Source: Azohydromonas caseinilytica (lineage in GTDB: Bacteria; Pseudomonadota; Gammaproteobacteria; Burkholderiales; Burkholderiaceae_C). Taken from it: a stretch of DNA of 60,568 nt. How positions within the stretch are numbered: the stretch's first letter is position 1; each line of letters begins with the position of its first letter. The notes beneath the pieces were generated by a model. It worked only from the letters and a program-made list of their open reading frames with translations, ran no database searches and had not been told where the DNA came from. Both the position numbers and the translations under genes were made by a program. The stretch lies in contig NZ_JABBFW010000033.1 in the NCBI RefSeq assembly GCF_012927045.1, positions 1-60,568 on the forward strand, read 5' to 3'. Positions 30,539 to 58,724 of the stretch are shown here, piece after piece.

Positions 30539-30585
30539 GCGGCTTGGCCGATCAGATTGGGCTGACCCGCGTCGCCAACCACGTC

Positions 30586-30737
30586 GTCATCCCCGCGCAG
30601 GCGGGGACCCAGGCGGTCCCACATCGGAGCGCGAGAGTCAACGTAGGCGTCACGATGCCCAGAAACCTGGACGTGCTGCCCAAGCAGCTCACGGTCAGCT
30701 TGCGGACCGCCTGGGCTCCCGCCTGCGCGGGAATGAC
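30586..30737. repeat. REP-like inverted repeat, family A copy 1
   Basis: Ends are GTCATCCCCGCGCAGG and its near-inverse ending GGGAATGAC, with inner segments CCCAGGCGGTCC and GGACCGCCTGGG also inverted. Each arm folds as a short hairpin (TCCCCGC / GCGGGGA). It fills most of the 318-nt gap between the DUF3025-like gene and pyrC; nothing else is recognisable in that gap. Confidence 0.88.
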
Positions 30738-30856
30738 GAGGCAGAAAACGTTGCTTCTCGGCCTCCGGGCTGCCGTCAGGCACCGCTTTTCCCGAACCAC
30801 ATTGCGCTTTTGCCGACCAGCCTGAGATCGAAATCACGCGCGACGGGCAACGGCTC

Positions 30857-37078: not shown

Positions 37079-37852
37079 ATGAACACCATCGGTCCCGGCG
37101 GCTGCATGCCGCCCTCGCCCAACCACGTCGTCAACGGCACCTCGGGCGACGACACCGTTCACATCTCCAAGGCCGACGGCCTGCTCGGGGCCCTGGGCCT
37201 GTACGAGGTCAACGTCAACGGCCAGACGCAGCTCATGACCAAGCAGCAGCTGGAGAACACCCAGTTCAACCTCGGCGCCGGCAACGACGTGCTGGTGGTG
37301 GACAAGGACGTCAAGGCCAACATCAGCGCCAACGGCGGCAGCGGCAACGACGTGCTGATCGGCGGCGGCGGCAACGACAACCTCAAGGGCGGCAGCGGCA
37401 ACGACCTCATCGCCGGTCGCGGCGGCAACGACAGGATCGATGGCGGCAGCGGCAACGACATCCTGCTCGGCGGCAAGGGCAACGACTGCATCCGCGGCGG
37501 CAGGGGCAATGACTACATCGACGGGGGCCGCGGCAACGACGATCTGCGCGGTGGCCGCGGCAACGACCACATCGATGGCGGACGCGGCAACGACTACATC
37601 GACGGCGGGCGCGGCAACGACCGGCTGCACGGCGGCCCCGGCAACGACCACATCGACGGCGGACGCGGCAACGACCACCTCAAGGGCGGCTCCGGCAACG
37701 ACCGGCTGCATGGCGGTCCCGGCCGCGACCACCTCGACGGCGGGCGCGGCAACGACCGCCTGGACGGCGGACCGGGCCACGACCACAACCACGGTGGCCC
37801 GGGGCTGGACCACGTCCGCTTCGACTGGGCCGACCTGTTCCATCGGCGTTGA
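37079..37852 (+). CDS. RTX-type calcium-binding repeat protein
   Basis: A 257-residue, Gly/Asp/Asn-rich protein. After about 75 residues of N-terminal domain, some eighteen nonapeptide repeats of the GGxGND(x)L/I/H type follow (GGSGNDVLIG, GGRGNDYID and so on), expected to form a calcium-filled beta roll. RTX proteins are normally exported by type I systems through a C-terminal signal. Here the end (GLDHVRFDWADLFHRR) is not a clear type I signal, no ABC exporter is nearby, and the gene opens the T3SS island, so the export route is open. No Sec signal is visible. ATG 37079 follows AAAGGAG. A terminator lies 50 nt past the stop. Confidence 0.8.
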   Translation: MNTIGPGGCMPPSPNHVVNGTSGDDTVHISKADGLLGALGLYEVNVNGQTQLMTKQQLENTQFNLGAGNDVLVVDKDVKANISANGGSGNDVLIGGGGNDNLKGGSGNDLIAGRGGNDRIDGGSGNDILLGGKGNDCIRGGRGNDYIDGGRGNDDLRGGRGNDHIDGGRGNDYIDGGRGNDRLHGGPGNDHIDGGRGNDHLKGGSGNDRLHGGPGRDHLDGGRGNDRLDGGPGHDHNHGGPGLDHVRFDWADLFHRR

Positions 37853-37902
37853 GCCTCCGCTTGCCGGCGTGGGCCGCGGGCCGACGCTGCAAACGTTCTT
37901 TC

Positions 37903-37928: not shown

Positions 37929-37998
37929 GGCGGTGGCTGCTGTCCGGGGGAAGTTGCCGGTTGTTGGCGGCCAGCTGATGCGGTCCGCTCACCACTGC

Positions 37999-38167
37999 GT
38001 CATTCCCGCGAAGGCGGGAACCCAGGCGGTCCCCAAGCTGCCCGTAAGCCAGTCGATTGGGGTGGGTGCCAAGGATTTGTAGCGTCGTGATGCCTACATC
38101 AGCTCTGGCGCTCTGGCGTGGGACCACCTGGGCGCTCACCAAGGGTGGGCGCCTCCGCGGGGATGAC
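37999..38167. repeat. REP-like inverted repeat, family A copy 2 (degenerate right arm)
   Basis: Begins GTCATTCCCGCGAAGGCGGG and ends CGGGGATGAC. The right arm is disturbed by extra sequence (CTCACCAAGGGTGGGCG), giving 169 nt against about 151 for the others. It lies in the 590-nt gap between the RTX gene and the unknown 214-residue gene, which otherwise shows nothing. Confidence 0.8.
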
Positions 38168-44205: not shown

Positions 44206-46152
44206 ATGAGCATGGCCGACTTCTTCCGCAGCTCGGCCAAGGCGCACGAGAGCGTGCTGGCGCGCTACAGCGACCTGCTGCTGGTCGCGGGCGTGGTGGC
44301 GATCGTGGCGCTGATGGTGCTGCCGCTGCCGCTGTGGCTGATCGACCTGCTGGTGGCGGCCAACATCGCCTCGGGGCTGATGCTGCTGCTGCTGGCCATC
44401 TACATCCAGTCGCCGCTGGAGTTCTCGGTGTTCCCCAGCGTGCTGCTGATGAGCACGCTGTTCCGGCTGTCCCTGTCCATCGCCACCACGCGCATGATCC
44501 TGCTGCACGGCGAAGCGGGCCACATCATCGACACCTTCGGCAAGGTGGTTGCGGGCGGCAACCTCGTGGTCGGCCTGGTGGTGTTCCTGATCATCACTGT
44601 GGTGCAGTTCATCGTCATCGCCAAGGGCGCCGAGCGCGTGGCCGAGGTGGCGGCGCGCTTCTCGCTGGACGCCATGCCCGGCAAGCAGCTGTCCATCGAC
44701 TCCGACCTGCGCTCGGGCCTGCTCGACAAGGACGAGGCCAAGCGCAAGCGCAAGGCGCTGGAGCAGGAAAGCAAGCTCCACGGCAGCCTCGACGGCGCCA
44801 TGAAGTTCGTCAAGGGCGACGCCATCGCCGGCATCGTCATCATCGCCATCAACCTGCTGGGCGGCCTGGCCGTGGGCGTGATGCAGCAGGGCCTGGACAT
44901 CGGCACCGCCATCTCCAAGTACTCGATCCTGACCATCGGCGAGGGCATGGTGGCGCAGGTGCCGGCGCTGCTGGGCGCGATGTCGGCGGGCCTGATCGTC
45001 ACGCGCAGCGGCGACGATGACGACAAGCACCTGGGCGACGCCATCCGCAAGCAGCTCACCGCCAAGCCCCGCGTGCTGCTGGTGGCCGGCGGGCTGTGCG
45101 TGCTGATGGCGCTGGTGCCCGGCTTCCCGGTGGGCGCCTTCCTGGCGCTGGCGCTGCTGGGCGTGAGCGCCGGCGTGCTGCTCACCCCGGCCTGGCGCGA
45201 GCGGCTGCAGCAGTCGCGCCACCCGGCCGTGCGCGGCCTGATGCGCAAGCTGCAGACGGCCCCGCCGGTCACCGCCACCGCGCTGCCGCAGGCGCGGCCC
45301 TCGGTGCCGCTGCTGCTGCGCGTGCCGCAGCGGCTGCTGGCCAACGAGGGCGCCACGCGCCTGAGCCGCGCGCTGGAGCAGGTGCTGAACGATTTTCAAC
45401 TTCAGCTCGGCCTGAGCTTGCCGCGCGTGCACCTGCATGGCGCGGGCGAGGACGGCTGGGAGCTGCTGGCTTTCGAAGTGCCGCTGGCGCAGGGCGAGCT
45501 GCCGGCCGAGGACATCCACCACGGCCTGGCCGAGGCGCTGCGCCGGCACGCGCCGCTGTTCCTGGGCATCCAGGACACCACGCAGCTGCTCACGCGCGCC
45601 TCCAACGACATGCCCGATGTCATCAAGGAGGTGCTGCGCGCGCTGCCCGTGCAGCGCGTGGCCGAGGTGCTGCGCCGCCTGGTGGCCGAGGGCGTGTCCA
45701 TCCGCAACCTGCGCGACATCCTGGAGGCGCTGTCCGACGCCGCCCAGCGCGAGAAGGACGCGCACTCGCTGGCCGAGATGGCGCGCGTGGCGCTCAAGCG
45801 CCAGATCAGCTGGCAGGTCGCACCCACGGGGCAGCTGCGCGCGCTGATGCTGGAGCCGGCGCTGGAAGAGCTGCTGCGCCAGGGCGTGCGCACCAACAGC
45901 GCCGGCTCGCAGCTGGCGCTGGAGCCGGCCGTGGCGCAGCGCATCAGCCAGGCGCTGTGCGCGGCCGTGCGCCGGCACCAGCCCTCGGCGGTGCTGACGC
46001 CCATCGACATCCGCTGGCACGTGCGGCGGCTGGTCGAGGCCGAGTGCTTCGACACCCCCGTGCTGTCCTACCACGAGCTCATGCCCACGCTGCAGCTCGA
46101 CGTGATCGACCGCGTGGCCCTGCCGGCCGCGCCGATGCTGGAGGCCGCGTGA
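44206..46152 (+). CDS. sctV: T3SS export gate protein SctV
   Basis: The large export-gate subunit, 648 residues, homologous to FlhA/HrcV. About eight transmembrane helices fill residues 20-330; the conserved FHIPEP-type loop region is VFPSVLLMSTLFRLSLSIATTR, and ARFSLDAMPGKQLSIDSDL is the cytoplasmic loop hallmark. The C-terminal half is the cytoplasmic nonameric ring domain (DVIKEVLRALPVQRVAEVLRRL). ATG 44206 follows AAGGGGG. The stop overlaps the GTG assigned to sctC in a GTGA junction. Confidence 0.96.
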   Translation: MSMADFFRSSAKAHESVLARYSDLLLVAGVVAIVALMVLPLPLWLIDLLVAANIASGLMLLLLAIYIQSPLEFSVFPSVLLMSTLFRLSLSIATTRMILLHGEAGHIIDTFGKVVAGGNLVVGLVVFLIITVVQFIVIAKGAERVAEVAARFSLDAMPGKQLSIDSDLRSGLLDKDEAKRKRKALEQESKLHGSLDGAMKFVKGDAIAGIVIIAINLLGGLAVGVMQQGLDIGTAISKYSILTIGEGMVAQVPALLGAMSAGLIVTRSGDDDDKHLGDAIRKQLTAKPRVLLVAGGLCVLMALVPGFPVGAFLALALLGVSAGVLLTPAWRERLQQSRHPAVRGLMRKLQTAPPVTATALPQARPSVPLLLRVPQRLLANEGATRLSRALEQVLNDFQLQLGLSLPRVHLHGAGEDGWELLAFEVPLAQGELPAEDIHHGLAEALRRHAPLFLGIQDTTQLLTRASNDMPDVIKEVLRALPVQRVAEVLRRLVAEGVSIRNLRDILEALSDAAQREKDAHSLAEMARVALKRQISWQVAPTGQLRALMLEPALEELLRQGVRTNSAGSQLALEPAVAQRISQALCAAVRRHQPSAVLTPIDIRWHVRRLVEAECFDTPVLSYHELMPTLQLDVIDRVALPAAPMLEAA

Positions 46153-48152
46153 CCGCTCTCATACCCATTCCATCAAGCCGTCGGTCCTTCCGATCCGTTC
46201 GTCCTGAGGTATCGAAGGACGAATCCGACAGGCTCGGAGGCCTGCCACACAGCGGGGGCCGTTCATCCTTCGATACCTCAGGACGAACGGAAAACCAACA
46301 CGGCGTTCTGGCGCCTCACGGGGTTCGTATCAGCCGTGGTCTGCGCGCCCTGCGCCGCGCCCTCTGCGCCCTGCTCTTCGCCGCCACGGCCGCCGCCACG
46401 GCTGCGCCCATGCCCAATGCCGGGCGGCCGGTGTCGATCACCGCGCGCGAGCAGCCCATCGCCGCCTTCCTGCAGAACCTGTTCGCCTCGGTGGACGTGC
46501 CGGCCGTGATCAGCCCGCAGCTCGCGGGCAGCGTCAACGGCAGCTTCAGCGGCCCGGCCGAGCGCGTGCTGCGCGACGTGGCGCGCGTCTACAACCTGGT
46601 GGCCTATTACGACGGCTCGGCCATGCACGTGGTGCCCGCGGCCGAGCTGGTCACGCGCAGCCAGGCGCTGTCCGCGCCCGCCGCCGACCGCGTGCTGCGC
46701 GAGGCCCAGGCGCTGGGCCTGCCCGATGCGCGCAACTCGCTGCGCCTGACCTCGGGCGGCCAGCTCGTCATCAGCGGCACCAGGCGCTTTGCCGAGCAGG
46801 TCGATGAGCTGATCCGCAGCGCGCAGTCGGCCCAGGCCGCGGCCACGGCACCGGCCGCGCCGGGGCAGATGGACTTCAAGGTCTTCTACCTGCGCTATGC
46901 CTGGGCCCAGGACACGACGGTGAACCTCGGTGGCCGCCAGATCGTGGTGCCGGGCGTGGCCTCGATCCTGCGCTCGCTGGTGGGCACGCGCCCCATCGGC
47001 GCCGGCGCGCAGGACGTGGCGCTGCGGCCCACCCTTCCGAAGCTCAAGGGCCAGGGCCTGGCCTCGCAGGGCATGGCGCCCACCGCGAGCGAGCGCGGCA
47101 AGGAGTCGGCCGACGCCGCGCGCGGGCGCGCCGTGGACGCGCTGGTCAACGCCCTCAACAGCACCGCGGTGCAGCCCGGCGAGGCCGGCCTGGCGGCCAG
47201 CGCCCCGGCCGCGGCGGGCCCGGCCTACGACCCGCGCAGCGTGAGCATCGAGGCCGAGCCGCGCCTGAACGCCATCATCGTGCGCGACGTGGCCGAGCGG
47301 CTGGCGCGCTACGAGCAGCTCATCGCCGCGCTGGACGTGGAGCCGCAGTCGCTGGAGATCGAGGCGACGATCATCGACGTCAACACCGACCGGCTGCGCG
47401 AGCTGGGCATCAACTGGCGCTGGAGCAATGCCGGCAACTCGGCCTCCTTCGGCAGCCTGGCGGCGGGCACGATCGGGCGCGGCGCGGTGGTGTCCACGGT
47501 GCTGGGCTCGATCGGGCAGTTCATCGCCCGCATCAACGCGCTGCAGGCCGAGGGCGCGGCGCGCGTGGTGTCCAGCCCGCAGGTGGTGACGCTCTCCAAC
47601 GTGGAGGCGGTGTTCGACAACACCTCCACCTTCTTCGTGCGCGTGGCCGGGCGCGAGGAGGTGGACCTGTTCAACGTCAGCGCCGGCACCTCGCTGCGCG
47701 TGACGCCGCACGTGTTCCGCGACCGGGAGCAGACGCGCATCAAGCTGCTGGTCAACGTCGAGGACGGCTCGCTCACCGGGCGCCAGGTGGACCAGATCCC
47801 GATCATCGAGCGCTCCTCCATCAACACGCAGGCGCTGATCGCCGAGGGCGAGAGCCTGCTCATCGGCGGCATGACGCGCGAGGTGTCGTCCGCCAACGTG
47901 GACAAGGTGCCGGGCCTGGGCGACGCGCCGGTGGTGGGCAACCTGTTCAAGAACCGCACCAACTCCAGCGCGCGCGTGGAGCGCATGTTCCTGATCACGC
48001 CGCGCCTGGCCTCCTCGCGCCCCGCGCCCACCAACACCGCGCTGCAGCCGGCCGTGGCGCCGGTGGCGGCCGCACCGGCCGCCGGCGCGCGCTACACGCC
48101 GGAGCGGCCGCCGGTGGAGATCGATCTGGAGGCGATGGGGGCGGGGCGATGA
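46149..48152 (+). CDS. sctC: T3SS outer-membrane secretin SctC with repeat-encoded N-terminal extension
   Basis: The YscC/HrcC-type secretin. The signal peptide core (RRALCALLFAATAAATAA) is at residues 69-86, followed by N0/N1 domains (ITAREQPIAAFLQNLFASVDV), an N3-like domain and the secretin barrel (VVSSPQVVTLSNVEAVF, SGTSLRV-type TPHVF, ALIAEGESLLIGGMTRE, VPGLGDAPVVGNLFKNR). The only ATG/GTG/TTG in frame before the signal peptide is GTG 46149, overlapping the sctV stop. Starting there gives 667 residues, with residues 16-47 translated from a family B repeat. Either the precursor has about 68 extra residues ahead of the signal, or a nonstandard start (CTG/ATC) after the repeat is used. Confidence 0.92.
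   Translation: MTALIPIPSSRRSFRSVRPEVSKDESDRLGGLPHSGGRSSFDTSGRTENQHGVLAPHGVRISRGLRALRRALCALLFAATAAATAAPMPNAGRPVSITAREQPIAAFLQNLFASVDVPAVISPQLAGSVNGSFSGPAERVLRDVARVYNLVAYYDGSAMHVVPAAELVTRSQALSAPAADRVLREAQALGLPDARNSLRLTSGGQLVISGTRRFAEQVDELIRSAQSAQAAATAPAAPGQMDFKVFYLRYAWAQDTTVNLGGRQIVVPGVASILRSLVGTRPIGAGAQDVALRPTLPKLKGQGLASQGMAPTASERGKESADAARGRAVDALVNALNSTAVQPGEAGLAASAPAAAGPAYDPRSVSIEAEPRLNAIIVRDVAERLARYEQLIAALDVEPQSLEIEATIIDVNTDRLRELGINWRWSNAGNSASFGSLAAGTIGRGAVVSTVLGSIGQFIARINALQAEGAARVVSSPQVVTLSNVEAVFDNTSTFFVRVAGREEVDLFNVSAGTSLRVTPHVFRDREQTRIKLLVNVEDGSLTGRQVDQIPIIERSSINTQALIAEGESLLIGGMTREVSSANVDKVPGLGDAPVVGNLFKNRTNSSARVERMFLITPRLASSRPAPTNTALQPAVAPVAAAPAAGARYTPERPPVEIDLEAMGAGR
46195..46290. repeat. 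REP-like inverted repeat, family B copy 3 (inside sctC frame)
   Basis: Left hairpin stem TTCGTCCT / AGGACGAA around GAGGTATCGA; right arm GTTCATCCTTCGATACC with its complement. The element is 96 nt, a multiple of three, and is open in the sctC frame, reading RPEVSKDESDR and SFDTSGRTE. Confidence 0.92.
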
Positions 48153-48189
48153 GCCACACGCAATTCACGGAGTTTCTGAACCCACCGCC

Positions 48190-48358
48190 CCGTTCGTCCT
48201 GAGGTATCGAAGGTCAAACCCGCAAGGCTGTAGCGATGCCCGTGGAGTCGTCGCCTCCCGACCCGTTCGCCCTGAGGTATCGAAGGGCGAATCCGGAAGG
48301 CTCATACGCCTGCCGCATGGCAAGGGCCGTTCATCCTTCGATACCTCAGGACGAACGG
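48190..48358. repeat. REP-like repeat, family B copy 4 (half copy plus full copy)
   Basis: A lone left arm (48190-48218, CCGTTCGTCCTGAGGTATCG) is followed by a complete element at 48263-48358 with stem TTCGCCCT / AGGGCGAA. Together they fill the sctC-sctD gap. A 17-codon frame starting ATG 48149 (ATGA overlap with the sctC stop) ends at the TGA inside the first CCTGAGG. Confidence 0.9.
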
Positions 48359-48396
48359 AAAAACCAACGCCCTTCCAGGGCGAACGGGAAAGGCCA

Positions 48397-51894: not shown

Positions 51895-52547
51895 GCTGGC
51901 TGCTGTGGCAGGCGGATGGGGCCACGCGCATCGCCTCGCCGCGCCTGGTGCTGCGCGCGGCCGAGGTGCCGGTGCTGCAGGACGCGCAGCGGCTGTGCGG
52001 CGAGCTGGCCGAGCTGCAGCGCGCCGAGGCGCAGCGCATCGCGGCCGTGCTGGAAACCGCGCGCACCGAGGGCGAGGCGCGGGGGCTGGAACAGGGGCGG
52101 CGCGCGGCGCGTGAAGAGCTGTCCGCCGCACTGCTGGCGCTGGGGCAGTCGGCCGAGGCCGAGCGCGCGCGGCTGCGCCGCGACACCGGCGTGCTGGCGC
52201 TGCAGGTGGTGCGCAAGCTGCTGGGCCGCTTTGCCCCGGACGAGGTGCTGGCGGCGCTGGCGGAGACCGCCGCGGCCGAGGTGGTGCCGGCGCAGCCGCT
52301 GGTGCTGCTGGTGCATCCCGACCAGGCCGACGCGGTGCGCGCGCGGCTGGCGGCGCGGGACACGCCGTTGGCGATCGAAGTGCGCGCCGACGCCGCCTGC
52401 GCGCCCGACGGCTGCCGCCTCGACACCGAGCACGGCAGCATCGACGCCTCGCTCGAAGGCCAGCTGACGCGGCTGGAGCAGGCCTGGGCGCCGCGGACTG
52501 AGCCAAGTAACGAAATTCCGGTATCCCAACCGATCCGTTCGCCCTGA
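51891..52547 (+). CDS. sctL: T3SS ATPase regulator SctL, C-terminus altered by a repeat
   Basis: A FliH/YscL-type stator linking the ATPase to SctQ, 218 residues. A long helical, Glu/Arg-rich region (about 40-105) is followed by the globular domain RRDTGVLALQVVRKLLGRFAPDEVLAALAET and LVLLVHPDQADAVRARL, ending near VRADAACAPDGCRLDTEHGSIDAS. The last five residues (PIRSP) and the TGA stop come from the family B repeat at 52535, so the original C-terminus may have been different. ATG 51891 overlaps sctK by 4 nt. Confidence 0.85.
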   Translation: MSWLLWQADGATRIASPRLVLRAAEVPVLQDAQRLCGELAELQRAEAQRIAAVLETARTEGEARGLEQGRRAAREELSAALLALGQSAEAERARLRRDTGVLALQVVRKLLGRFAPDEVLAALAETAAAEVVPAQPLVLLVHPDQADAVRARLAARDTPLAIEVRADAACAPDGCRLDTEHGSIDASLEGQLTRLEQAWAPRTEPSNEIPVSQPIRSP

Positions 52548-52666
52548 GGTATCGAAGGGTGAATCCGACAGGCTGCAATGGCGGCCGAACAGCAGGGGCC
52601 GTTCATCCTTCGACGCGCCCGCAGGGCGCGCCCTGTGCTGAGGTTTCGAAGCATCAGGACGAACGG
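52535..52666. repeat. REP-like repeat, family B copy 5 (interrupted right arm)
   Basis: Left arm TTCGCCCTGAGGTATCGAAG is intact. In the right arm the TACC of CTTCGATACCTCAG is replaced by about 40 nt (52613-52652) that contain GGGCGCGCCC-type palindromes and TGCTGAGGTTTCGAAGCA, itself a smaller hairpin of the same design. Lies between sctL and sctN and supplies the sctL stop codon. Confidence 0.85.
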
Positions 52667-54528: not shown

Positions 54529-54557
54529 GGACAGCCCCGTGATGGCGCGGGCTGTCC
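54529..54557 (+). terminator. Perfect hairpin after sctO, no U-run
   Basis: GGACAGCCC pairs with GGGCTGTCC over 9 bp around an 11-nt loop, 32 nt past the sctO stop. Lacking a U-run it may only attenuate. With the family A repeat that follows, it divides the operon before the SctP candidate. Confidence 0.5.
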
Positions 54558-54610
54558 GAGAGGAGTTGCAGAGCGTTGGCCGCGAGCTGACGTGGATCGC
54601 TTACTACTTC

Positions 54611-54760
54611 GTCATTCCCGCGCAGGCGGGAACCCAGGTGCTCCCCACGCTGACCGTGAGCCAGCTGCTCAGCGTGCCGAGGACTTGGTGTCGCAATGCC
54701 TGCATCAGCGCTGACGTGCTCACGTGGGACCGCCTGGGTCCCCGCCTGCGCGGGGATGAC
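54611..54760. repeat. REP-like inverted repeat, family A copy 3
   Basis: GTCATTCCCGCGCAGGCGGG at the left and CGGGGATGAC at the right, with CCCAGG / CCTGGG inner inversions. About 37 nt of left flank (GCCGCGAGCTGACG..TTACTACTTC) are shared with copy 4, so the unit is longer than the core. Together with the hairpin before it, this explains the 374-nt space between sctO and the SctP candidate. Confidence 0.9.
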
Positions 54761-54871
54761 GAAGTGGTGGGGAGAGCGAATCGGCTCACGGCCGGCATCC
54801 ACCAGCCACTCCAGACAGCCGCATATCTGTGCGGCGCAACAGCTGTCCTTCTTAGCTTGCCTGGAGAAACC

Positions 54872-57390: not shown

Positions 57391-58724
57391 TGAACGCCTT
57401 GCTTCGTGAGTCTTCGCCTTCGGACAGCTCCATGCCGGCGCAGTTGCACCGCTGGCCAGGGGAAGGTGATAGGCAGCAGCCGCAAGCTGACTCGCTTGGC
57501 TTACTACCTTGCCATCCCCGCGCAGGCGGGGACCCAGGCGGTCCCGCATCAGCATGTCAGAGCCAATGCAGGCACCAAGAGGCCGAGAGTCCTTGGCTTG
57601 TTACCCAAGCGGCTGACGGCAGGCATGGGGACCGCCTGGGTTCCCGCCTTCGCGGGAATGACGAGTCAGCGAGCGAGACAGCATCGCTCACGGGCTACCA
57701 GGGGCTCGCCGCCCTCGGCGACGCCGTGGCCGTGCTCGATGACTTCACGCGCCGCATCGCCTGGGCCAGCCCCGCGTGGCTGCGCCTGCTGCCCGCGCAG
57801 GGTGCCGGCACGCCGCTGCCGCAGCTGGAGCAGGCCCTGCCCGGCCTGGCGGCGGCCCGAGCCGTGGAGACGGAGACGCCGCAATGCCTGGTGCTGGGCG
57901 ACGCGCATGAATGGCGGGCCGAGCTCACCGCCGCGGTCAACGGCCAGCGGCTGCTGCGCCTGGCGGACCGCCGCGAGCAGGGCCGCGCGCTGCAGCGCCA
58001 GCTCGATGCGCGCGAGCAGCTGCTGTTCACCTCGCGCGTGCTGTCGGTGGGCGAGATGGCGGCCACGCTGGCGCACGAGATCAACCAGCCCATCGGCGCC
58101 TGCGCCAACCTGCTGCGCGGCCTGCGCTCGCGGCTGTCGCGGCGCGGCAGCGGCCGGCTGCAGGAGGCCGAGGCCCAGGCGCTGGACCGCGCCATCGACC
58201 AGGTCATGTTCGCGGCGCGCGTCGTCGCCCGCATCCGCGAGTTCACCCACTCTCACCAGCCGCGCCGCGCGCGGGTGGACGTCAGCGCCCTGCTGCGCGC
58301 CACGGCGCCGCTGCTGGACTGGGACCTGCAGCGCAGCGGCACGCGGCTGGCGCTGGAGCTGCCCGAGGGCGAGGCCGCCGTCTGCGGCGACGAGGTGATG
58401 CTGCAGCAGGTGGTGATGAACCTCATGCGCAACGCGCTGGACGCGCTGCGCACCGACCCGCCGCCCGAGCCGCGCCTGGCGCTGCGGCTGCTGCGCCGCG
58501 CCGGCGAGATCGAGCTGCAAGTCAGCGACAACGGTTGCGGCCTCGACGACGAGGCACAGGCCAGGCTGTTCGTGCCCTTCGCCTCGACGAAACCCTCCGG
58601 CATGGGCATCGGGCTGTCGATCTGCCGCTCCTTCATCGAGCTGCACCAGGGCCGGCTGTGGTTCAGCCGCAATGGGGATCGCGGCGCGACCTTCCACGTG
58701 AGCCTTCCCACCATCACGCCTTGA
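57387..58724 (+). CDS. PAS-domain histidine kinase (FixL-like) with repeat-encoded segment
   Basis: A soluble kinase of 445 residues. Residues about 28-100 are translated from a family A repeat (PCHPRAGGDPGG ... GSRLRGNDESA). A PAS-like domain follows (about 108-195), then the dimerisation helix with H230 in MAATLAHEINQPIGA, the form typical of FixL/DctB kinases, and the ATPase domain (VVMNLMRNALDAL, DNGCGLDDEAQARLF, PSGMGIGLSICRSF). GTG 57387 overlaps the previous stop; ATG follows at once at 57390. A GTG at 57726, after the repeat, is an alternative start. The response regulator gene is 8 nt downstream. Confidence 0.88.
   Translation: MMNALLRESSPSDSSMPAQLHRWPGEGDRQQPQADSLGLLPCHPRAGGDPGGPASACQSQCRHQEAESPWLVTQAADGRHGDRLGSRLRGNDESASETASLTGYQGLAALGDAVAVLDDFTRRIAWASPAWLRLLPAQGAGTPLPQLEQALPGLAAARAVETETPQCLVLGDAHEWRAELTAAVNGQRLLRLADRREQGRALQRQLDAREQLLFTSRVLSVGEMAATLAHEINQPIGACANLLRGLRSRLSRRGSGRLQEAEAQALDRAIDQVMFAARVVARIREFTHSHQPRRARVDVSALLRATAPLLDWDLQRSGTRLALELPEGEAAVCGDEVMLQQVVMNLMRNALDALRTDPPPEPRLALRLLRRAGEIELQVSDNGCGLDDEAQARLFVPFASTKPSGMGIGLSICRSFIELHQGRLWFSRNGDRGATFHVSLPTITP
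57511..57662. repeat. REP-like inverted repeat, family A copy 4 (inside kinase frame)
   Basis: Begins GCCATCCCCGCGCAGG and ends CGGGAATGAC; inner CCCAGGCGGTCC and GGACCGCCTGGG are inverted. The flanks match copy 3. It is open in the kinase reading frame. Confidence 0.92.

Follow-up and report, generated by a model that had tools for sequence, protein, structure and literature searches.

Repetitive extragenic palindromic (REP) elements lie mostly near the 3' ends of genes (PMC3733652, PMC12306157), and REPs in frame within genes or at their N-termini have already been described. REPs tagged GTAG/CGTC occur as dimers and clusters in frame in genes, some of them N-terminal, the clusters encoding 43 to 82 residues (PMC3733652), and Rickettsia palindromic elements (RPE) are found in frame in coding genes (PMC5896051, PMC3733652), an N-terminal RPE-1 being said to be expressed (PMC3733652). 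Enterobacterial RU elements are fused to genes, and one such small repeat supplies the N-terminus of a predicted exported protein (PMC2759123); exceptionally long signal sequences occur in autotransporters and two-partner secretion proteins (PMC2805444). The present work deals with a 96-nt REP-type unit at the 5' end of sctC, the gene for the secretin of a type III secretion system, in Azohydromonas caseinilytica. The window is the whole stretch of DNA analyzed, 60,568 nt of contig NZ_JABBFW010000033.1, and sctV, sctC and all their parts lie on its forward (+) strand.

The unit in sctC resembles the GTAG/CGTC-tagged REPs of PMC3733652 in being an in-frame N-terminal unit whose family has the habit of lying close to gene 3' ends. 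It differs from them in that sctC has no later canonical start, encodes an exported secretin, carries the repeat ahead of a Sec signal, and has a second case at the same junction in a sister species. Like RPE, the repeat is palindromic and would lie in frame in a coding gene, its frame being free of stops from the shared start. Unlike RPE, no member of its family was located inside a coding body (window genome, 0 of 43 copies; A. aeria, 0 of 42 rows), as judged by a codon-score test that is blind to N-terminal extensions. The repeat of the RU case belongs to the predicted signal peptide, whereas sctC retains the inherited signal, with the repeat 5' of it. With the proteins of PMC2805444 the likeness is only in the long leader before the Sec signal, which in sctC would come from a repeat insertion. 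No such repeat in a type III secretin appeared among the titles and abstract openings listed in searches of the open-licence literature. What is new here is the missing later start, together with two informative relatives. The explanation that we favor, with a probability of about two in three, is that translation of SctC begins at GTG 46149 and that the REP-encoded extension ahead of its signal peptide is tolerated.

Start Codon at the sctV/sctC Junction

The export gate gene sctV (44206-46152; Pfam FHIPEP, E 2.5e-185), 89% identical to its orthologue in A. australica (L024) and 87% to that in A. aeria (L025), ends with the TGA at 46150-46152. The sctC start GTG (46149-46151) overlaps this stop as GTGA, and a GGAGG ribosome-binding site (46140-46144), which doubles as sctV codons, lies 4 nt 5' of it. 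Reading of the frame confirmed that GTG 46149 is the sole in-frame ATG, GTG or TTG from the sctV stop to ATG 46410, as the original prediction had stated. From the one codon to the other the sequence runs through about 40 nt, the 96-nt repeat (46195-46290) and a short linker into the signal peptide, and the repeat is indeed in frame with sctC and free of stops up to the signal core. Since ATG 46410 is located 3' of the hydrophobic core, it cannot start a Sec-exported precursor. One element of the original prediction had to be corrected: sctC does not start inside the repeat, its start lying before it.

The duplex of the ribosome-binding site at GTG 46149 with the anti-Shine-Dalgarno (anti-SD) sequence reached -9.3 kcal/mol, equal to A. 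australica, and the values at 400 random positions had a median of -2.8 and a 5% quantile of -7.1 kcal/mol. This site was the strongest among ten in-frame ATG or near-cognate codons, the second being that of ATC 46329 (-6.2 kcal/mol). In 19 of 32 related loci the sctC start shares 4 nt with the sctV stop; the comparison covered 32 of 33 loci, L054 being dropped because its match begins after the N-terminus.

The second-ranked codon (46329-46331) is the best-placed near-cognate start 3' of the repeat, and translation could begin there, leaving the repeat as an untranslated hairpin. Its leader, 27 codons before the mature part (MPN), would be of normal size, a TTG stands behind the repeat array of A. 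aeria (see below), and PMC3733652 considers that many REPs at the N-termini of open reading frames are perhaps extragenic, with translation possibly starting downstream. However, no ATG, GTG or TTG occurs after the repeat before 46410, and the GTG has a stronger site, common to A. australica. Starts at ATC are rare and weak, and we regard such a start as unlikely. Among the outcomes contemplated in the original prediction, the tolerated extension was the best supported, by the start and ribosome-binding site shared with A. australica, by the 4-nt overlap in related loci and by the open frame of A. aeria, the ATC start being weaker.

Signal Peptide and Mature Secretin

SctC is a type III secretion secretin, encoded beside other sct genes. 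Its inherited Sec signal peptide (46332-46409, with a hydrophobic core at about 46359-46397) aligned with the 5' region of A. australica sctC. The hydropathy maximum fell on residues 71-83 of the GTG-initiated protein, so that about 70 residues would precede the core, rather than 13. No competing hydrophobic segment was found in the extension, the best 12-mer outside the core scoring 0.37 vs. 2.23 in hydropathy. The mature part (46410-48152) matched Pfam Secretin (E 4.3e-38) and Secretin_N (E 9.5e-16), sctC was 88-89% identical to its two relatives, and the ratio of nonsynonymous to synonymous substitution rates (dN/dS) of the mature part was well below 1 (0.34 and 0.36 in the pairs with the window species, 0.32 in the other pair).

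The Junction without the Repeat in A. australica

At the junction of A. australica the same GTGA overlap and GGAGG were found, with the signal peptide directly behind and no repeat. From the start to the mature part there were 31 codons in A. australica vs. 87 in the window; relative to A. australica, about 168 nt, repeat included, have been added behind the GTG. The added or replaced stretch, which would encode the pre-signal extension, spans 46152-46328 (borders approximate), with 56 codons more than in A. australica. The window sequence 3' of the repeat aligned with the 5' end of A. australica sctC, and none of 1000 shuffles aligned as well. Matches to the repeat family numbered four in A. 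australica and none in the fourth Azohydromonas genome (G003). As A. australica shares the start without the repeat and holds few copies of the family, the start at GTG 46149 was most likely inherited and the repeat arrived later, in agreement with the earlier proposal, in which sctC acquired the repeat by a jump into its 5' end. None of the three Azohydromonas loci holding sctC has the same extension without a repeat.

As a separate observation, in the metagenome-assembled genome of a distant Rhizobacter sp. (L034, 3806-4001) an in-frame ATG overlaps the sctV stop, 195 nt 5' of the mature SctC start.

Structure and Copy Number of the Repeat

Family matches and folding defined the 96-nt REP-type unit (46195-46290) as two inverted arms. 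In the left arm hairpin (46198-46223) the two pair positions by the core were both paired in 41 of 42 copies, with five pair combinations, and in the right arm hairpin (46262-46287) in 40 of 41, with two combinations; pairing of left with right arm occurred in only 5 of 40 copies. Compensatory change was therefore found within arms and not between them, which indicated a dimer built from two REP hairpins. In the sctC copy the arms also match each other, giving an outer helix of 26 bp (46194-46219 with 46266-46291), and the RNA fold of this copy had -68.3 kcal/mol (z -9.8).

This capacity to fold, with the 26-bp helix from 46194, would also suit an insertion that harms secretin production, through the hairpin or through poor targeting, in a type III system that is silent or being lost. 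According to PMC12306157, REPs of Escherichia coli can lower translation, but only within 15 nt of the stop, and the sctC copy is about 40 nt away. Moreover, sctC is intact, with similar dN/dS values in all three pairs, although recent damage could still have occurred, and the Pfam matches of sctV, sctJ, sctU and sctL exceeded their cut-offs. Harm of this kind seems rather unlikely to us.

In the window genome 40 of 91 candidate places were scored, which gave at least 95 family matches, with arms and both strands included, and the 14-base arm core had 129 exact occurrences, vs. 0 for a reversed control pattern. The family thus displays a high copy number, palindromic arms in inverse orientation and extragenic sites near gene 3' ends, as expected of REP/REPIN elements. 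Altogether 43 copies, 40 of them full, were examined, coming from the 40 scored candidates plus the copies in the window. A strict repeat pattern run against 150 genomes of the bacterial family matched the species' own genome only, the pattern being too narrow, and the arm core was present in 13 of the 150. A RAYT transposase gene flanked by the repeat was looked for as a candidate mover. Matches to Y1_Tnp (PF01797) were obtained in all four Azohydromonas genomes (1, 2, 5, and 2), even in G003, where the repeat family itself gave no match; among the ten Y1_Tnp loci, arm cores appeared only at L096, from the window species' own genome, about 1.35 kb from the match.

Repeats often break assemblies, and the genome is a draft of 98 contigs, so an assembly or base-call error might have removed a canonical start after the repeat or misplaced the repeat itself. 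Against this, the closest other copy among the matches listed is only 90% identical, the sctC copy is internal to its contig and flanked by sctV and sctC, and the A. aeria assembly also has REPs at the sctV/sctC junction; an error of this sort is very improbable.

Two other kinds of repeat were noted in the window: a tandem array with a 27-nt step (37280-37873; 15 overlapping registers), and another family of dispersed inverted repeats, different from the REP of sctC, at 30558-30768, 37939-38052, 54551-54800 and 57451-57698.

Location of the Copies with Respect to Genes

Genes were called with a codon-score script trained on five window genes, which scores the sctC copy as intergenic; starts were checked separately. 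Of the 43 copies of the window genome, 33 had a gene 3' end at a distance of 21-44 nt, as had 23 of 41 copies in A. aeria, and 4 of the 43 had the 5' end of a coding body at this distance; these distance counts are given without a null. For A. aeria 40 of 83 candidates were scored, and one copy (L128, the same as L025:7930) was doubled in the 42 rows, leaving 41 after its removal. By the codon-score test, the family was not one that recurs inside genes.

According to the codon-score test, 9 of the 43 copies were open into a downstream coding body. In eight of them an ATG, GTG or TTG was available between the repeat and the first three codons of the body, sctC being the exception, and in A. aeria none of ten open rows was without a later start. 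A gene beside a REP in L068 (240-480, minus strand), which we take to resemble fliR, was considered as a second start-less case and rejected, as it has a TTG start shortly 3' of the REP.

Other copies were noted near genes of the same system. A REP copy at 52533-52613 of the window covers the end of sctL, whose last codons and stop (52545-52547) are in repeat DNA, and a full unit with an extra arm (48181-48362) lies between sctC and the next gene (48397). In A. aeria, a REP (L025, 7930-8023) is located just 5' of a gene like sctJ; no arm core was present near the sctJ of the window (50534).

The Larger Array of A. aeria

For the A. aeria genome the 40 candidates scored gave at least 128 family matches, arms and both strands included. 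At its sctV/sctC junction GTG 3317, which overlaps the sctV stop as in the window, is 684 nt (228 codons) 5' of the mature part, and this stretch, open throughout in the sctC frame, contains two full REP units, additional arms and a tandem array of 21-nt units. The other five frames contained 3 to 7 stops each, and the probability of such an open frame by chance was about 1% (41 of 5000 shuffles; 0.014 by a second estimate). A scan of L024, L025, and L057 to L141 gave no other cluster of at least four arm cores. The tandem array itself (L025, 3798-3909) is degenerate, has no indels, is in the sctC frame and begins at the end of a REP arm.

A single ancestral insertion common to the window and A. 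aeria was considered less likely: the full-length matches between their repeats (102 and 98 nt) were on opposite strands, same-strand matches being single arms of at most 30 nt, and the 5' flanks (40 nt in the window, 59 nt in A. aeria) showed no match beyond chance (845 of 1000 shuffles). Between A. aeria and A. australica the 5' flank matched weakly (24 of 1000 shuffles) and the 3' flank not significantly (145 of 1000). From these comparisons, the array of A. aeria is probably independent of the insertion in the window.

If REP DNA entered the junction on two or more occasions in the genus, the frame might have been kept open because the translated segment gates or slows secretin export or assembly, thereby tuning the injectisome. 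A role of this kind, in slowing or gating export or assembly, has been proposed for long signal extensions of autotransporters. We nevertheless view a function of this kind as doubtful, and hold it to be improbable.

Origin of the Extension

In the favored explanation, in which SctC is translated from GTG 46149, a REP-type unit would have inserted about 40 nt after the sctV stop, near the usual 21-44 nt site of the family. The preference of the family for sites just behind stops would have directed the unit to the sctV stop; as the two genes overlap by 4 nt, this place was already inside the first sctC codons. The inherited GTG and GGAGG would have remained in use, the added DNA being in frame and stop-free. 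The precursor would then carry about 56 extra, mostly polar residues, partly encoded by the REP, ahead of a normal Sec signal peptide, and would be exported in spite of them. As the signal core is kept, signal peptidase may cut off extension and signal together, leaving the mature secretin unchanged and the insertion nearly neutral in its effect.

Several points weigh against this explanation. The end of sctV (Leu-Glu-Ala-Ala-stop) partly dictates the GTG and GGAGG, whose retention is therefore no independent proof of use, and the argument from conservation is weakened. The chance of an in-frame, stop-free insertion in the window alone is about 1/3 x 0.6; the frame of the repeat used by sctC was open in 38 of the 40 full copies of the genome, and the three forward frames together in 72 of 120. 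A hairpin of 26 bp early in the coding region could slow translation. The open frame of A. aeria was noticed post hoc and need not be used, since later in-frame starts exist there (e.g., TTG 3941, with a site of -5.9 kcal/mol), and its 21-nt units displayed no third-position excess of changes (19, 32, and 24 by codon position), hence no sign of amino-acid constraint. The open frame of the window was also tried as stand-alone evidence and set aside, as dinucleotide shuffling likewise left the 261-nt stretch stop-free in 1590 of 5000 trials, which is not significant.

The locus offers a clean natural test of whether REPs become protein sequence, and of the length of leader that a Sec signal tolerates on the subunit of an outer-membrane pore. 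It also suggests that the preference of a repeat family for sites behind stops can become a coding change where genes overlap.

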